Positions 1 to 34,450 of a stretch of DNA of 34,714 nucleotides are shown piece by piece (positions within the stretch are counted from its first letter, which is position 1; each line of letters opens with the position of its first letter). The notes beneath the pieces were generated by a model. That model was not told where the DNA came from. It searched no databases and was given only the letters and a program-made list of their open reading frames with translations. The stretch is from Oscillospiraceae bacterium (GTDB lineage Bacteria > Bacillota > Clostridia > Oscillospirales > Oscillospiraceae). The stretch is from positions 1 to 34,714 of the forward strand of contig SVLV01000014.1 of assembly GCA_015067765.1 (NCBI GenBank), written 5' to 3'. A program made the translations under genes and the position numbers.

Positions 1-21
1 CTATAACCACGAGCGCATCCA

Positions 22-3804: not shown

Positions 3805-5286
3805 ATGAAAATCGGGTTTAACAATGAAAAATATCTGCAGCTGCAGGCGCGCCACATCCGGGAGCGGGTGGGGCAGTTCGGCGGCAAGCTGTATTTGGAG
3901 TTTGGCGGCAAACTGTTTGATGATTTCCACGCCTCCCGGGTCCTGCCGGGCTTTGAACCGGACAGTAAGATCCGCATGCTGGCCACCATGAAGGACGAGG
4001 TGGAGATCGTGCTGGTGATCAGCGCGGGGGACATCGAGAAGAATAAGATGCGCGGCGATCTGGGCATCAGCTATGATGACGAGGTGCTGCGCCTGCTGGA
4101 TATTTTCCACGGGATGGATTTCTATGCCAGCTCCGTGGTCATCACACAGTATGCCGGTCAGCCTGGGGCGGATGCCTTTGCCCAGCGGCTGGAGAACCTG
4201 GGTGTGCGCTGCTATCGCCATTATCCTATCGCCGGCTACCCCTCGGATGTGGCCCATATTGTCTCTGACGAAGGGCTGGGAAAGAACGATTATATCGAGA
4301 CCAGCCGCCCCATCGTTGTGATCACCGCACCGGGTCCCGGCAGCGGTAAAATGGCCACCTGCCTGAGCCAGCTGTATCATGAGAACAAGCGAGGCATCCG
4401 GGCCGGCTATGCTAAGTATGAGACTTTCCCCATCTGGAATCTGCCCCTGAAGCACCCGGTGAATCTGGCTTATGAGGCCGCCACGGCAGATCTGAAGGAT
4501 GTCAATATGATCGACCCCTTCCATCTGGAAAAGTACGGGCAGACCACGGTCAACTACAACCGGGATGTGGAAATCTTCCCGGTGCTCAACGCTATGTTTG
4601 AGAAGATCCAGGGTGAGTCTCCCTACTACTCTCCCACGGATATGGGTGTAAATATGGCGGGCTTTGCCATTGAGGATGATGAGGCCTGCTGCGAGGCCTC
4701 CCGTATGGAGATCCTGCGCCGATATTACACGGCGCTGAAGGATCGGGTCAAGGGCAAGTGCGATGATGAGGTAGTCCGCAAGCTGGAACTGGTGATGAAG
4801 CAGGCTTCCGTCAGTGAGGAGCTGTGTCCTGCTATTGCGGCGGCGCTGCAAAAGGCGGAGGAGACCGGTGCACCTGCCGGGGCCATGCAGCTGACAGACG
4901 GACGGGTCATCACCGGTAAGACATCGTCCCTGCTGGGTGCTTCCGCGGCCCTGCTGGTGAACACGCTGAAGGCCATGGCCGGCATCGATGCGAAGTTGGA
5001 TCTGATCCCGGCCTCCGTGATCGCCCCCATCAGCAAGCTGAAGACGGACCATCTGGGTCACCGGAATCCCCGCCTGCATTCCGATGAGGTGCTGATCGCT
5101 CTGGCCATCTCGGGCCTGACCAACCCGCTGGCCGCGCTGGTGCAGCAGCAGCTGAGTAATCTGCGGGGCTGCAATGCCCACTTCTCTGTGATCCTGTCGG
5201 AGGAGGATGAGCGGCTGTATAAGAGGTTGGGAATCCAGGTCACCTGCGAGCCCAAGTACGAGATCAAGAAGCGCTGCGAAAAATAA
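3805..5286 (+). CDS. DUF1846 / UPF0371 family protein
   Basis: A 493-aa soluble protein matching the DUF1846 (UPF0371) family along its whole length, from MKIGFNNEKYLQLQ with FGGKLYLEFGGKLFDDFHASRVLPGF downstream to the C-terminal region. The central segment ITAPGPGSGKMATCLSQLYH (from about residue 173) is a P-loop-like GPGSGK element typical of the family. Structures of family members are known, but as far as I know the biochemical function is not established. The start is the ATG at 3805 after GAGGGAGGCGG. A terminator separates it from tex. Length matches family members. Confidence 0.9.
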   Translation: MKIGFNNEKYLQLQARHIRERVGQFGGKLYLEFGGKLFDDFHASRVLPGFEPDSKIRMLATMKDEVEIVLVISAGDIEKNKMRGDLGISYDDEVLRLLDIFHGMDFYASSVVITQYAGQPGADAFAQRLENLGVRCYRHYPIAGYPSDVAHIVSDEGLGKNDYIETSRPIVVITAPGPGSGKMATCLSQLYHENKRGIRAGYAKYETFPIWNLPLKHPVNLAYEAATADLKDVNMIDPFHLEKYGQTTVNYNRDVEIFPVLNAMFEKIQGESPYYSPTDMGVNMAGFAIEDDEACCEASRMEILRRYYTALKDRVKGKCDDEVVRKLELVMKQASVSEELCPAIAAALQKAEETGAPAGAMQLTDGRVITGKTSSLLGASAALLVNTLKAMAGIDAKLDLIPASVIAPISKLKTDHLGHRNPRLHSDEVLIALAISGLTNPLAALVQQQLSNLRGCNAHFSVILSEEDERLYKRLGIQVTCEPKYEIKKRCEK

Positions 5287-8374: not shown

Positions 8375-9163
8375 TTATGCCCGGAAGGCGGCGATGTCCG
8401 CCTTGGCGGCATTCATGAAAATGCAGGTATCGCAGGAGTAGCCGATAAATTTGATGCCCATGTCACGCCATTTGCGGGCCATCTGGGGATGGTCGGCAAA
8501 GCAACCCACCTTCACGCCGTAGGCGGCGGCCCGCTCCACCAGCTGGCGGATCAGCTTTTCCACCTCGGGATGCTCGATCTGACCGATAAGGCCCAGCGAG
8601 CTGGACAGATCATAGGGGCCGACAAATACGATGTCGATGCCGGGGACGGAGAGCATCTCATCCAGATTCTCCAAAAAGCGTTTGCCCTCGGCCTGAATGA
8701 TAACCATGGTATCCTGTGCCTGCTGGAAATACTCGCTGCCGGGCACTGCGCTGTAAGCGGCGGAGCGGACGAAACGGTTGGTGCCGCGGTTACCCAGGGG
8801 AGAGAACTTGGCGGCGGCAATGGCGGCCTTTACCTGCTCGGGGGTATCCACCTGCGGGATCATCACAGCGCCGGCGCCCACATCCAGGGCACGGTCGATC
8901 CAGATGTCGCTGCCGCGGGGGACGCGTACTACCGGCATAACGCCCGCCACATTGGCGGCGCGGATCAAATTCTGCAGCCCTTCGAAGGTGCCGGGGCCGT
9001 GCTCCATATCCAGCAGCACAAAATCAAAGCCGGCATATCCGGCGGACTCCACGAAAGCGGGATCACCGGTGATCATGAAGGGACCGAATGCGCCCTGAGG
9101 AGAGTCCAAAGCGGTCCGGAAGCGGGCGATGCTGTCCATTGTGGGCATAGACACCTTGTTCAT
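8375..9163 (-). CDS. HpcH/HpaI family class II (metal-dependent) aldolase
   Basis: A 262-aa TIM-barrel aldolase of the HpcH/HpaI/citrate lyase beta family. Members cleave 2-keto-3-deoxy sugar acids or 4-hydroxy-2-oxo acids to pyruvate plus an aldehyde, using a divalent metal. Seen motifs are FDFVLLDMEHGP with Glu54-His55 (near residues 47-57), PVVRVP, VMIPQVDTPEQV, and FVGPYDLSSSLG. In the usual MIPxVE segment an aspartate-containing variant is present. The start is the ATG at 9163, nine bases after AGGAG (9173-9177); an earlier ATG at 9170 is in another frame. It is monocistronic with its own promoter and terminator. No sugar-acid catabolic neighbours are present, so the substrate is unknown. 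Confidence 0.9.
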   Translation of the reverse strand: MNKVSMPTMDSIARFRTALDSPQGAFGPFMITGDPAFVESAGYAGFDFVLLDMEHGPGTFEGLQNLIRAANVAGVMPVVRVPRGSDIWIDRALDVGAGAVMIPQVDTPEQVKAAIAAAKFSPLGNRGTNRFVRSAAYSAVPGSEYFQQAQDTMVIIQAEGKRFLENLDEMLSVPGIDIVFVGPYDLSSSLGLIGQIEHPEVEKLIRQLVERAAAYGVKVGCFADHPQMARKWRDMGIKFIGYSCDTCIFMNAAKADIAAFRA

Positions 9164-9343: not shown

Positions 9344-9568
9344 GTGCGCAAGAAAAGAGATCCGGGACTGCCGGACGACGCAACACCGGATGTCCACGCC
9401 TTCTCCGGACCTCCGGAGAATTGCTTTGATCTGATCAATCGGTACGGAACTTATAATGTGCAGGACACCTGTGACACGGAAAATCTGTTTCCGCTGATCG
9501 GGCATCGGCTGCCCAGACAGTGGGAGGGGATGGTCCTGGATAAGTACGATCTGGAGCAGGAACAGTAA
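9344..9568 (+). CDS. Small conserved protein of unknown function (74 aa)
   Basis: A 74-aa soluble acidic protein with a central segment FDLINRYGTYNVQDTCDTEN followed by LFPLIGHRLPRQW. The pattern YGTYxxQxTxDTxNxFPxIxxxLP recurs, from memory, in short Firmicutes proteins of unknown role. The start is taken as GTG at 9344 because a full AGGAGGTGAT ribosome site ends four bases before it; an ATG at 9326 (six residues longer) precedes that site and has AGGAGG farther upstream. A perfect 13-bp terminator starts at the stop codon. Function is unknown. Confidence 0.75.
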   Translation: MRKKRDPGLPDDATPDVHAFSGPPENCFDLINRYGTYNVQDTCDTENLFPLIGHRLPRQWEGMVLDKYDLEQEQ

Positions 9569-9616
9569 ACATTGCCCCCGACAGTCTCGCAGACCAATCG
9601 GGGGCAATGTTTCTTT
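9569..9616 (+). terminator. Terminator after the 74-aa gene
   Basis: Perfect 13-bp stem (9569-9581 with 9598-9610), followed by TTCTTTT. Confidence 0.9.
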
Positions 9617-9675: not shown

Positions 9676-9704
9676 TTGACTTTGTGGTGGGGTCATGATA
9701 TAAA
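9676..9704 (+). promoter_or_regulatory. Strong promoter of the T-box RNA
   Basis: TTGACT (9676-9681) and TATAAA (9699-9704) are exactly 17 bases apart, predicting a transcript start near 9711, just ahead of the T-box stem I. Confidence 0.85.
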
Positions 9705-9710
9705 ACAAAT

Positions 9711-9980
9711 TAAAAAAACGCAAAGATGCAGAATAGTAAGCGGGAAGCCCCTCTCAGAGAAGTGCCGGTTGGTGCAAGGCACAGGGTGGGTGACCGGCCC
9801 AACTGGCTGTAGAGTGGCCGCGCTGAATCACAGTAGGTGCGGACGGGATGCTCCCGTTACAGGGCGTGGGAATGGGTGCATTTCCTTGAGAGATCTCCCG
9901 GGAGGGAGATAAGAAGAGTGGTACCGCGGGATTCTTTCCGTCTCTTCTGCCAACGGCAGAGGGGGCGGATTGTGCTTTTC
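9711..9980 (+). promoter_or_regulatory. T-box leader RNA without a same-strand target gene
   Basis: A tRNA-sensing T-box leader. Seen in order are: the specifier-loop 5' side AGTA (9735-9738); the AGAGA element and distal loop GGTTGGTGCAAGGC near 9756-9780; the specifier-loop 3' side GAA (9825-9827), flanked by pairing AGCG/CGCT; a CCCGTTAC segment near 9852-9859; and the T-box TGGTACCGCG (9919-9928). AAGAA/TTCTT and GAGA/TCTC can close the antiterminator. The specifier reads ATC (Ile, 9827-9829) or TCA (Ser, 9828-9830) depending on register. The TGGT bulge pairs with a discriminator A, which fits tRNA-Ile and not the G73 usual in tRNA-Ser. No same-strand gene follows until abrB at 11191; spmB lies on the opposite strand. 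Confidence 0.92.
9937..9979 (+). terminator. T-box leader terminator
   Basis: A 15-bp stem (9937-9951 with 9955-9969, several G-T pairs, AAC loop), then TTGTGCTTTT. Its 5' arm shares TCTC (9941-9944) with the base of the antiterminator, so the two structures exclude each other. It ends exactly at the spmB stop codon. Confidence 0.8.
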
Positions 9981-10503
9981 AGGCCCCAAAAAAGAGACGG
10001 ACCAGAAGGGATGCCGTGAAAAACGCGGTGAAATCCGCCGTCAGTGCGGCGGGGATCGTATAGCGGGTCCTGTGGATGCCGGCGGCTCCGAAGTAGACGG
10101 CGATGGTATAGAAGGTGGTTTCACTGGCCCCCAGCATGACAGCTGCGGTGCGGCCCAGGTAGGAATCCGGACCATACTGCTGCATCAGATCGCTGCCTGC
10201 CGCCAGAGCGCCGGAGCCGCTGAGGGGGCGGATCAGCAGCAGGGATACAGTCTCCGGTGGGATCCCCAACTGCAGCAGCAGCGGGCGGAGCAGGTCGGTC
10301 AGGGCATCCATTGCCCCGGAGGCACGAAACATATAGATGGCGGAGAGCAGGGCCACCAAAGCGGGAAAGATCCGCAGAAGGATGGTAAGCCCCTCTCCGG
10401 CGCCGGCGGTCAGGGCGCTGTAGACATCTACCTTCCGGCTCAGTGCGTAGAAGGCCACTGCGGCCAGCAGCAGAGGGACGATGACGTCCGTAAGATGGCT
10501 CAT
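9979..10503 (-). CDS. spmB: Spore maturation protein B
   Basis: A 174-aa membrane protein of the SpmB type (nucleoside-recognition/Gate domain). With SpmA it is needed for normal spore core dehydration and heat resistance in Bacillus and Clostridium; the molecular mechanism is unresolved. Hydrophobic segments alternate with loops: VIVPLLLAAVAFYAL, ILLRIFPALVALLSAIYMF, TVSLLLIRPLSGSGALAAG, MLGASETTFYTIAVYFGA, and a last helix near ALTADFTAFFTASLLVRLFF. RPLSGSGA and GASETTFY are conserved in the family. Its ATG overlaps the spmA stop by four bases (ATGA), so the two are translationally coupled. The stop adjoins the oppositely transcribed T-box terminator. Confidence 0.93.
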   Translation of the reverse strand: MSHLTDVIVPLLLAAVAFYALSRKVDVYSALTAGAGEGLTILLRIFPALVALLSAIYMFRASGAMDALTDLLRPLLLQLGIPPETVSLLLIRPLSGSGALAAGSDLMQQYGPDSYLGRTAAVMLGASETTFYTIAVYFGAAGIHRTRYTIPAALTADFTAFFTASLLVRLFFGA

Positions 10504-11084
10504 GCGCGATCCCTCCCGATCAGACTCAATAATTTAGCCATGGTCAGCCCTGCCGTAACCGACAGCAGGGAGGAGAGCCATACGGCAGGAAGAATATCAA
10601 AGGGTGCAGAGGCACCCAGTGCGCTGCGCAGCCCCGCCACGGTCGTGGGCAGCAGCTGGATGGAGGCGGTGTTGAGCACCACCAGCCGGCACAGTTCGTC
10701 TGTGGCGACACCCTCCGCTCCGCGGGCCATGCGCCGTGCGGCACGGATGCCCAACGGTGTGGCCGCGTTGCCCAGTCCCAGCAGATTGGCGCTGACATTG
10801 GCGGAAAGTGCGCTCAGGGTCTCCGGATCCCGGCAGGCCCGGGGAAAGATGCGCCGCAGCAGTGGATGAAACAGGCGGGCAAGTCTGTCTGCCAGTCCGC
10901 AGCGGGTCATGACCTCCATGACCCCGCTCCAAAGACACAGGAGCCCGGCCATGGACAGGCATAGCTCCACTGCCGCTGCAGCACCTTCGATCGCTGCCGT
11001 GCCCACCGCATCCATAGAGCCGGTGGTCAGGCCAAACACACAGGACAGGACGACCATTCCTGTCCAGACCCAAGCCATTGCCAT
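10500..11084 (-). CDS. spmA: Spore maturation protein A
   Basis: A 194-aa integral membrane protein of the SpmA family, partner of SpmB in spore maturation. Features are the N-terminal hydrophobic segment WVWTGMVVLSCVFGL, a second in AAAAVELCLSMAGLLCLWSG, the conserved LSANVSANLLGLGNAATPLG stretch (Gate domain), and FDILPAVWLSSLLSVTAGL at the C-terminus. The ATG at 11084 follows GAGGTGATC. It is the first gene of the spmA-spmB operon and faces away from abrB, whose start is about 100 bases to the right. Sporulation-specific transcription is expected from the family, but I did not identify a convincing sporulation sigma-factor promoter. Confidence 0.93.
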   Translation of the reverse strand: MAMAWVWTGMVVLSCVFGLTTGSMDAVGTAAIEGAAAAVELCLSMAGLLCLWSGVMEVMTRCGLADRLARLFHPLLRRIFPRACRDPETLSALSANVSANLLGLGNAATPLGIRAARRMARGAEGVATDELCRLVVLNTASIQLLPTTVAGLRSALGASAPFDILPAVWLSSLLSVTAGLTMAKLLSLIGRDRA

Positions 11085-11190
11085 ACGATCACCTCAACCA
11101 TATATATGCAGGGGTATACGTGGGTTATCCCCTTGGATAGAGGCTGTTTCTACAGAGATGGCCACCGGACAATGAAGAGGAGAAAGAAAG

Positions 11191-11436
11191 ATGAAAGCAA
11201 TCGGTATTGTACGAAAGATGGATGAGTTGGGCCGCATTGTGCTCCCGGTGGAGCTGCGCCGCACTCTGGATATCGCCGAGCGCGATACGCTGGAGATCTA
11301 TGTGGAGGGGTCCGCTATCGTCTTGAAGAAGTATCGGCCCACCTGCATTTTCTGCAATGGGAACAAGGACATTCAGGAGTTCCGGGGCAAGAATGTCTGC
11401 GGCAAGTGCCGGAAGGAACTGGCTGCGGATGAGTGA
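11191..11436 (+). CDS. abrB: AbrB-family transition-state regulator with C-terminal zinc-ribbon-like motif
   Basis: An 81-aa regulator. The N-terminal half, GIVRKMDELGRIVLPVELRR (residues 5-24), is the swapped-hairpin AbrB DNA-binding domain, which represses stationary-phase and sporulation genes in Firmicutes. The C-terminal half has two Cys-X2-Cys pairs (Cys52/Cys55 in CIFC and Cys70/Cys73 in CGKC), a zinc-ribbon-like module common in clostridial AbrB proteins and different from the B. subtilis C-terminus. The ATG at 11191 follows GAGGAGAAAG. It is monocistronic, ended by a 17-bp terminator. Its position next to spmAB fits a role in the sporulation decision, but that link is inferred. Confidence 0.9.
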   Translation: MKAIGIVRKMDELGRIVLPVELRRTLDIAERDTLEIYVEGSAIVLKKYRPTCIFCNGNKDIQEFRGKNVCGKCRKELAADE

Positions 11437-26876: not shown

Positions 26877-26905
26877 TTGACATGAGTTTGTATTGCGTAT
26901 AAAAT
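26877..26905 (+). promoter_or_regulatory. rny promoter
   Basis: TTGACA (26877-26882) and TAAAAT (26900-26905), 17-base spacing. It leaves an untranslated leader of about 100 bases that holds a small AACGGA/TCCGTT hairpin. Confidence 0.8.
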
Positions 26906-34268: not shown

Positions 34269-34450
34269 GTACGCGCGAAAGGGTGGTGCACACCCGGCCG
34301 CGTTTACATTGCGATGAACCGGGAGATTGCTCCGAGAGGAGGTAACTTCCGGGGAGTATGTCCGATCATCGGGCGGCTGAGAAGTTCTGTACGCTAGCGT
34401 AGATCGCTGCGCCAGAAGCACACCGGCCGGATTATGCGCCGGTGTTTCTT
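34269..34450 (+). promoter_or_regulatory. Structured leader RNA of the S10 ribosomal protein operon with attenuator hairpin
   Basis: About 290 untranslated bases separate the promoter from rpsJ. Visible helices are: GGGTG/CACCC inside a GTACGCG/CGCG helix; CGGGAG/CTCCG; AACTTC/GAAGTT enclosing CCGAT/ATCGG; and a 12-base palindrome TACGCTAGCGTA (34390-34401). The last hairpin, ACACCGGC/GCCGGTGT (34420-34445), is followed by TTCTT and looks like a terminator, suggesting regulated attenuation, perhaps by a ribosomal protein. I cannot assign a known leader family. Bases 34451-34541 show no further element. Confidence 0.6.

Follow-up and report, generated by a model that had tools for sequence, protein, structure and literature searches.

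A complete leucine T-box leader facing the 3' end of spmB in an Oscillospiraceae genome, probably displaced from a permease cassette

In an Oscillospiraceae genome (GCA_015067765.1), a complete T-box leader locates 3' of the spmB gene and faces it. The window analysed here is the whole 34,714-nt stretch of contig SVLV01000014.1. We put the chance at about three in four that this element is the leucine T-box leader of a former leader-permease cassette and that a rearrangement or deletion displaced it to where it now abuts spmB. Read from the sequence, the case consists of the T-box anatomy, a leucine specifier, a matching tRNA-Leu(CAG), relatives that are still attached to a permease, and a synteny break at the element. 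The loss event itself we infer.

The leader occupies positions 9714–9948 of the plus strand. It covers the Rfam T-box model RF00230 from end to end (positions 1–219 of 219) and scores 112.3 bits (E 2.7e-24), above the curated gathering score of 93. All domains are present. The AGAGA motif of stem I lies at 9756–9760 by sequence and Rfam alignment, and the T-box sequence at 9919–9928 reads TGGTACCGCG. According to the Rfam alignment and folding, the antiterminator (9915–9945) keeps 9/9 pairs. Terminator scans place the terminator at 9937–9978, comprising a hairpin of 15 pairs at 9937–9969 and a weakened U-tract, with 5 U in 9970–9977. The terminator and the antiterminator are mutually exclusive and have one strand in common. 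The folding z-score of 9714–9990 is -2.91.

Upstream of the leader, the plus-strand segment 9676–9704 contains an extended -10 promoter, TTGACT-17-TATAAA, with a TG one base ahead of the -10 element. A search with the pattern TTGACW-15..19-TATAAA returned two matches in the window against 0.01 expected; the other promoter-like match, TTGACA-15-TATAAA, is found at 26877–26903. The promoter at 9676–9704 is absent from the lists of the consensus promoter scans because these accept only T as the sixth base of the -10 element. The initial annotation, made from the letters of the window, had described a near-consensus promoter, a complete T-box leader and a terminator that meets the stop codon of the convergent spmB gene. 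The promoter, the Rfam match and the 15-pair hairpin bear out this description, as does the geometry at the 3' end, where the hairpin ends at 9969, the spmB stop codon occupies 9979–9981 of the minus strand, and the terminator tail meets it.

To read the specifier, we calibrated its register on two leaders of the same genome, one with AUC (L001) and one with UGG (L005). The ORF at L001 resembles isoleucyl-tRNA synthetase by eye and has a class I domain. At L005, the Trp-specifier (UGG) T-box stands upstream of a TrpB-like PALP enzyme. By the calibrated register and the Rfam alignment, the specifier of the window leader at 9803–9805 is CUG, a leucine codon, and the genome contains two tRNA-Leu(CAG) genes, both with an ACCA end. 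The T-box sequence at 9919–9928, UGGUACCGCG, includes UGGU complementary to this end, so its bulge requires a tRNA ending in ACCA. Among the other tRNAs listed for the genome, those for Ser and Thr end in GCCA or TCCA. Those for Tyr and Met end in ACCA too, and leucine is therefore singled out by the codon, not by the bulge. Together, specifier and bulge both fit one tRNA encoded in the genome, tRNA-Leu(CAG). A leucine specifier is at odds with ileS, which the initial annotation had named as one gene that the leader might once have preceded.

The genome encodes 12 T-boxes, and the expectation that such leaders sit upstream of a synthetase or amino-acid gene holds for 11 of them; the window copy alone is without a fitting gene. 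The 11 targets are nine ORFs with tRNA-synthetase domains (in L012, the anticodon-binding domain is the only one found), one TrpB-like enzyme, and one permease on contig C6. As a control, we asked for an ORF within 400 nt at 29 T-box loci of the genus. It was passed by 28/29, the sole miss being L074, which ends 303 nt after its T-box. This control was dropped as undiscriminating because the spurious ORF at 9970 in the window would pass as well. We also notice a T-box match in G001 (L077) that is missing the GG.[AG]CC motif from its last 70 bases and is followed by an ORF with a lipoprotein-like start.

The closest relatives of the window leader all belong to one cassette. DNA searches gave long matches at the own C6 contig and in G025 among 32 genus genomes, and four further ones (L160–L163), in other genera, among 400 family genomes. 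All six near-full-length matches (approximately 237 bases or more) stand upstream of the same permease, with 102–114 nt between the T-box motif and the start codon, and their specifiers are CUG or CUC, all for leucine. The window leader is 71–75% identical to these leaders across the aligned part. C6, at 72%, is its only own-genome match in the DNA search. Weaker, partial matches lie upstream of other genes (L164, L166, L171 and L184), of which, by eye, two are like valyl-tRNA synthetases, one is like acetolactate synthase, and one is without clear likeness.

The permease itself occurs in 7/400 family genomes at E<=1e-80, and the leader is present in five of the seven (C6 and four others). At the other two loci, L228 and L229, no leader was found by a motif search. 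The permease has a sub-threshold match only to the Pfam sodium:solute symporter family, and the specifier of its leader suggests that leucine would be its substrate. The cassette of leucine T-box and permease (L002, L014, L160–L163) is rare and patchy and may move between lineages. The leader has no match in phage records, and segment 9569–10120 has none in plasmid records.

Superimposing the window on the loci of relatives places the T-box at a joint. On one side stands spmB (9979–10503, minus strand), convergent with the T-box and identified from the ORF list, domain search and homologues, which are found in 32/32 genus genomes, our own included. It is followed on the minus strand by spmA (10500–11084; ORF list and domain search). 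Both are named by resemblance, and both carry a Gate domain. Divergent from spmA is a plus-strand AbrB-family gene (11191–11436; TIGR01439, 31.7 bits, cut-off 28.3) with a product of 81 aa. The divergent pair spmA-abrB recurs in 26/29 genus loci and 74/80 GTDB loci, and the interval 11085–11190 between the two genes may contain conserved promoters.

On the other side of the break lie a small plus-strand ORF (9344–9568) and a minus-strand HpcH/HpaI aldolase gene (8375–9163, from domain searches). The small ORF is without a Pfam or NCBIfam match and has matches in 30/32 genus genomes, the own genome included. Neither it nor the HpaI gene was found in the spmB stretches of relatives (0/29 genus, 0/80 GTDB), and its homologues in the genus lie on contigs other than that of spmB, or far from spmB. 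Two pieces that lie apart in relatives are thus adjacent in the window, and the synteny break falls at their joint, where the T-box sits.

In the loci scanned, no relative was found to keep a T-box in this position. An Rfam scan found none at spmB in 29 genus loci, which represent all 31 other genomes of the genus except G011 and G013, and a sequence-profile scan found none facing spmB in 80 GTDB loci. The profile, built from 29 genus T-boxes, recovers 11/12 of the own T-boxes at E<=0.01, and the own 12 were then added for the 80-locus scan. At least 300 nt beyond spmB is present in 29/29 genus loci and in 77/80 GTDB loci; the two sets partly overlap and are not independent (L021 and L079 share a flank). 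The genes beyond spmB were viewed for part of the loci.

The profile scan did reveal T-boxes in three GTDB loci, each approximately 1 kb past spmB and sharing its strand: L084 (7535–7750) and L091 (7504–7717), both also found by Rfam, and L111 (7595–7789), found by the profile. At L084, the ORF after the T-box resembles threonyl-tRNA synthetase (thrS) by eye. The motif search, which recovers only 9/12 of the own T-boxes, gave matches in 6/80 loci (L084, L091, L098, L108, L115 and L130). When Rfam was run on these six, it placed T-boxes in L084 and L091 only, and elsewhere than the motif matches. The L115 match lies approximately 460 nt past spmB on the facing strand; we rejected it as a T-box facing spmB, as it is a motif match only and Rfam finds none there. 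Another spmB locus, L098, carries a yjdF (azaaromatic) riboswitch at 3821–3939 (75.4 bits).

Downstream of the window leader, the absence of a plus-strand gene for 1.2 kb, as initially annotated, is upheld. No credible sense-strand amino-acid gene lies before abrB, approximately 1.2 kb on, which is the first credible plus-strand gene beyond the T-box. Between the terminator and abrB, the plus strand has two ORFs of at least 70 aa, at 9970–10869 and 10909–11175, which are almost wholly antisense to spmB and spmA (spmBA) and have no Pfam hit at E<=1. A hidden sense gene at 9970–10869 was rejected on these grounds, the family match being absent and the opposite strand being occupied by the genus-wide spmBA. 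Our scan found no intrinsic terminator on the plus strand between 9978 and 11190, so read-through RNA could reach abrB.

On the upstream side, a repeat search detected a 15-bp perfect inverted repeat at 9567–9612 with T-rich flanks. It likely terminates the upstream plus-strand ORF and may do the same for spmBA from the opposite side. Since no minus-strand terminator was found by scan between spmB and this repeat, spmBA transcripts may end in a 3' tail that is antisense to the entire T-box. Near the contig end, at 34306–34376 of the window, we observed an S10-Clostridia ribosomal protein leader (RF03136, 41.7 bits).

By comparing the window leader with the six permease-linked leaders, we assessed its state of preservation. 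It keeps 44/47 structural pairs versus 37 to 42 of 46–47 in the linked leaders, on a pair list taken from the Rfam alignment of the window leader itself, which favours the window in this comparison. The terminator keeps 15/15 pairs. Relative to the six, two pairs (9819/9841 and 9938/9968) show two-sided changes with pairing retained, and the strand common to terminator and antiterminator still fits both. On the other hand, pair 9742/9796 is broken in the window leader only, and its U-tract has 5 U among the first 8 positions, counted by hand from 9970–9977, versus 7/8 in each of the six. On the tree, the orphan branch is the longest, at 0.66 versus 0.21–0.31 for C6, G025, L160 and L163. The deep nodes, on which the source of the leader depends, have a support of only 35–44. 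A recent copying of the C6 leader is unlikely, as the two are 72% identical and are not grouped on the tree, though with weak support.

Weighing against a displaced leader, the kept pairs and the compensatory changes argue that selection preserved its structure during much of its evolution. In our reading, the leader would have served long beside a gene and would have lost its target recently. With its fold intact, it probably still responds to uncharged tRNA-Leu. The initial annotation had disfavoured a relic with a deleted target on the ground that preserved elements speak against long decay. The preservation stands, but a recent loss of the target is still compatible with it, and a relic fits better, given that all six of the closest T-boxes lie ahead of one and the same permease and that synteny breaks at the leader.

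We propose that a rearrangement or deletion severed the leader from its permease and placed it against the spmB 3' end. A tblastn search (E<=1e-4) found no remnant of the permease in the window, so such a deletion must have been clean. The promoter at 9676–9704 would still fire. With charged tRNA-Leu, most transcripts would end near 9975. Uncharged tRNA-Leu would still stabilise the antiterminator; the polymerase would then continue across spmB and spmA in antisense, and the antisense RNA may extend to abrB. Owing to the weaker U-tract, some read-through may occur even with plentiful leucine. Most likely, the antisense spmBA RNA arises as a by-product instead of being an output under selection, and regulation of spmBA by the T-box is possible but unsupported.

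The arrangement could instead have been selected. Leucine starvation would then cause read-through, lower spmBA and maybe add abrB mRNA, an excludon-like coupling of leucine to sporulation. The intact fold with compensatory changes, the promoter, the encoded ligand tRNA, the convergent and abutting spmB, the plus strand from 9978 to 11190 in which no intrinsic terminator was found, and a Spo0A gene in the genome all agree with this. Part of the initial proposal is accordingly plausible, namely that starvation read-through runs antisense to spmB-spmA and maybe into abrB, as the leader is complete, points into spmBA and meets no terminator found by scan; nothing shows selection, however. The further step, which ties amino acid starvation to sporulation genes, loses its comparative ground at the spmB loci of relatives, where a T-box kept without a sense gene had been looked for and none faces spmB (0/29 genus, 0/80 GTDB). 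In addition, among the T-boxes tallied in a survey of riboswitches in antisense position, 107 are antisense and 15,851 are sense, and antisense placement is not enriched (P 1.00; PMC9943018). Starvation would moreover repress a starvation-induced programme, presumably the reverse of what is expected, and SpoIVA was not found in the incomplete genome (79% complete), which leaves sporulation itself unproven. Overall, we regard a selected antisense T-box as unlikely. Distinctly unlikely, too, is a capture of the leader after the permease was lost, in which starvation would gate it as an antisense promoter opposing spmA-spmB and, conditionally, as an additional promoter of abrB. A shortage of charged tRNA-Leu would in that case bias the cell away from spore maturation, and transcription of spmBA would run antisense through the T-box.

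Other roles for the element have a slimmer chance. The promoter and terminator do form a free-standing transcription unit, and the terminated RNA of approximately 260 nt might itself act as a small RNA or as a tRNA-Leu sponge, but its placement is not conserved and its closest relatives are ordinary leaders, which makes such a role very improbable. Least credible is abrB as a very distant sense target reached via a 1.2-kb leader. Although no credible plus-strand gene comes between the T-box and abrB, and the scan detected no intrinsic terminator along the way, the pair spmA-abrB is common without such a T-box, so abrB presumably has its own promoter, and the six linked leaders have their gene 102–114 nt past the motif. 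The source is a metagenome assembly of 58 contigs, 79% complete and 3.8% contaminated, and might have fused two unrelated pieces near 9978. Yet the sole other match to the leader that a DNA search gives in the genome is 72% identical, which provides no long shared repeat to cause a false join, and the join adjoins an intact spmB stop codon; we give an assembly artefact very little weight.

Displacement of T-boxes has precedents. The survey explains T-boxes that face transposases and pseudogenes as chance products, and it describes a tryptophan-transporter T-box of B. thuringiensis that now faces a transposase (PMC9943018). The T-box of cstA1 in B. methanolicus has been proposed to be what remained when a rearrangement split a unit (PMC4342826). 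Compared with the leucine T-box of the permease cassette, which belongs to the same family (RF00230), the window leader has likewise all domains, a leucine specifier, a UGGU bulge and the promoter/attenuator layout. It differs by having no sense gene, a weaker U-tract and a convergent gene directly after it. The displaced or antisense T-boxes described in the survey (PMC9943018) resemble it in that they have been parted from an amino-acid transporter and now point at the 3' end of a different gene, whereas the gene faced in the window is an intact spmB.

The antisense riboswitches of C. acetobutylicum ubiG (SAM) and L. monocytogenes pocR (cobalamin) are likewise located at a gene 3' end and transcribed against the gene. 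In those cases, which have been described (PMC9943018), the ligand fits the function of the target; the window arrangement is known from the DNA alone, and its functional fit is not obvious. As in an excludon (PMC9943018), a long antisense RNA could run on into the neighbouring sense gene, here abrB, but the arrangement in the window is not conserved. The window thus holds a further antisense-placed or displaced T-box of a kind that is already catalogued, with the twist that the facing genes are sporulation genes.

To our knowledge, leucine has no established link to the spore maturation proteins. At the level of titles and abstract openings, the literature yields no T-box facing spmA or spmB. 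An intact riboswitch that faces a gene is by itself not evidence of regulation, and this caution applies here. The window offers a clean example, in a gut-type bacterium, of an amino-acid sensing leader that would have outlived its gene and is now aimed at a neighbour. Antisense regulation could evolve from such stranded leaders as its raw material.
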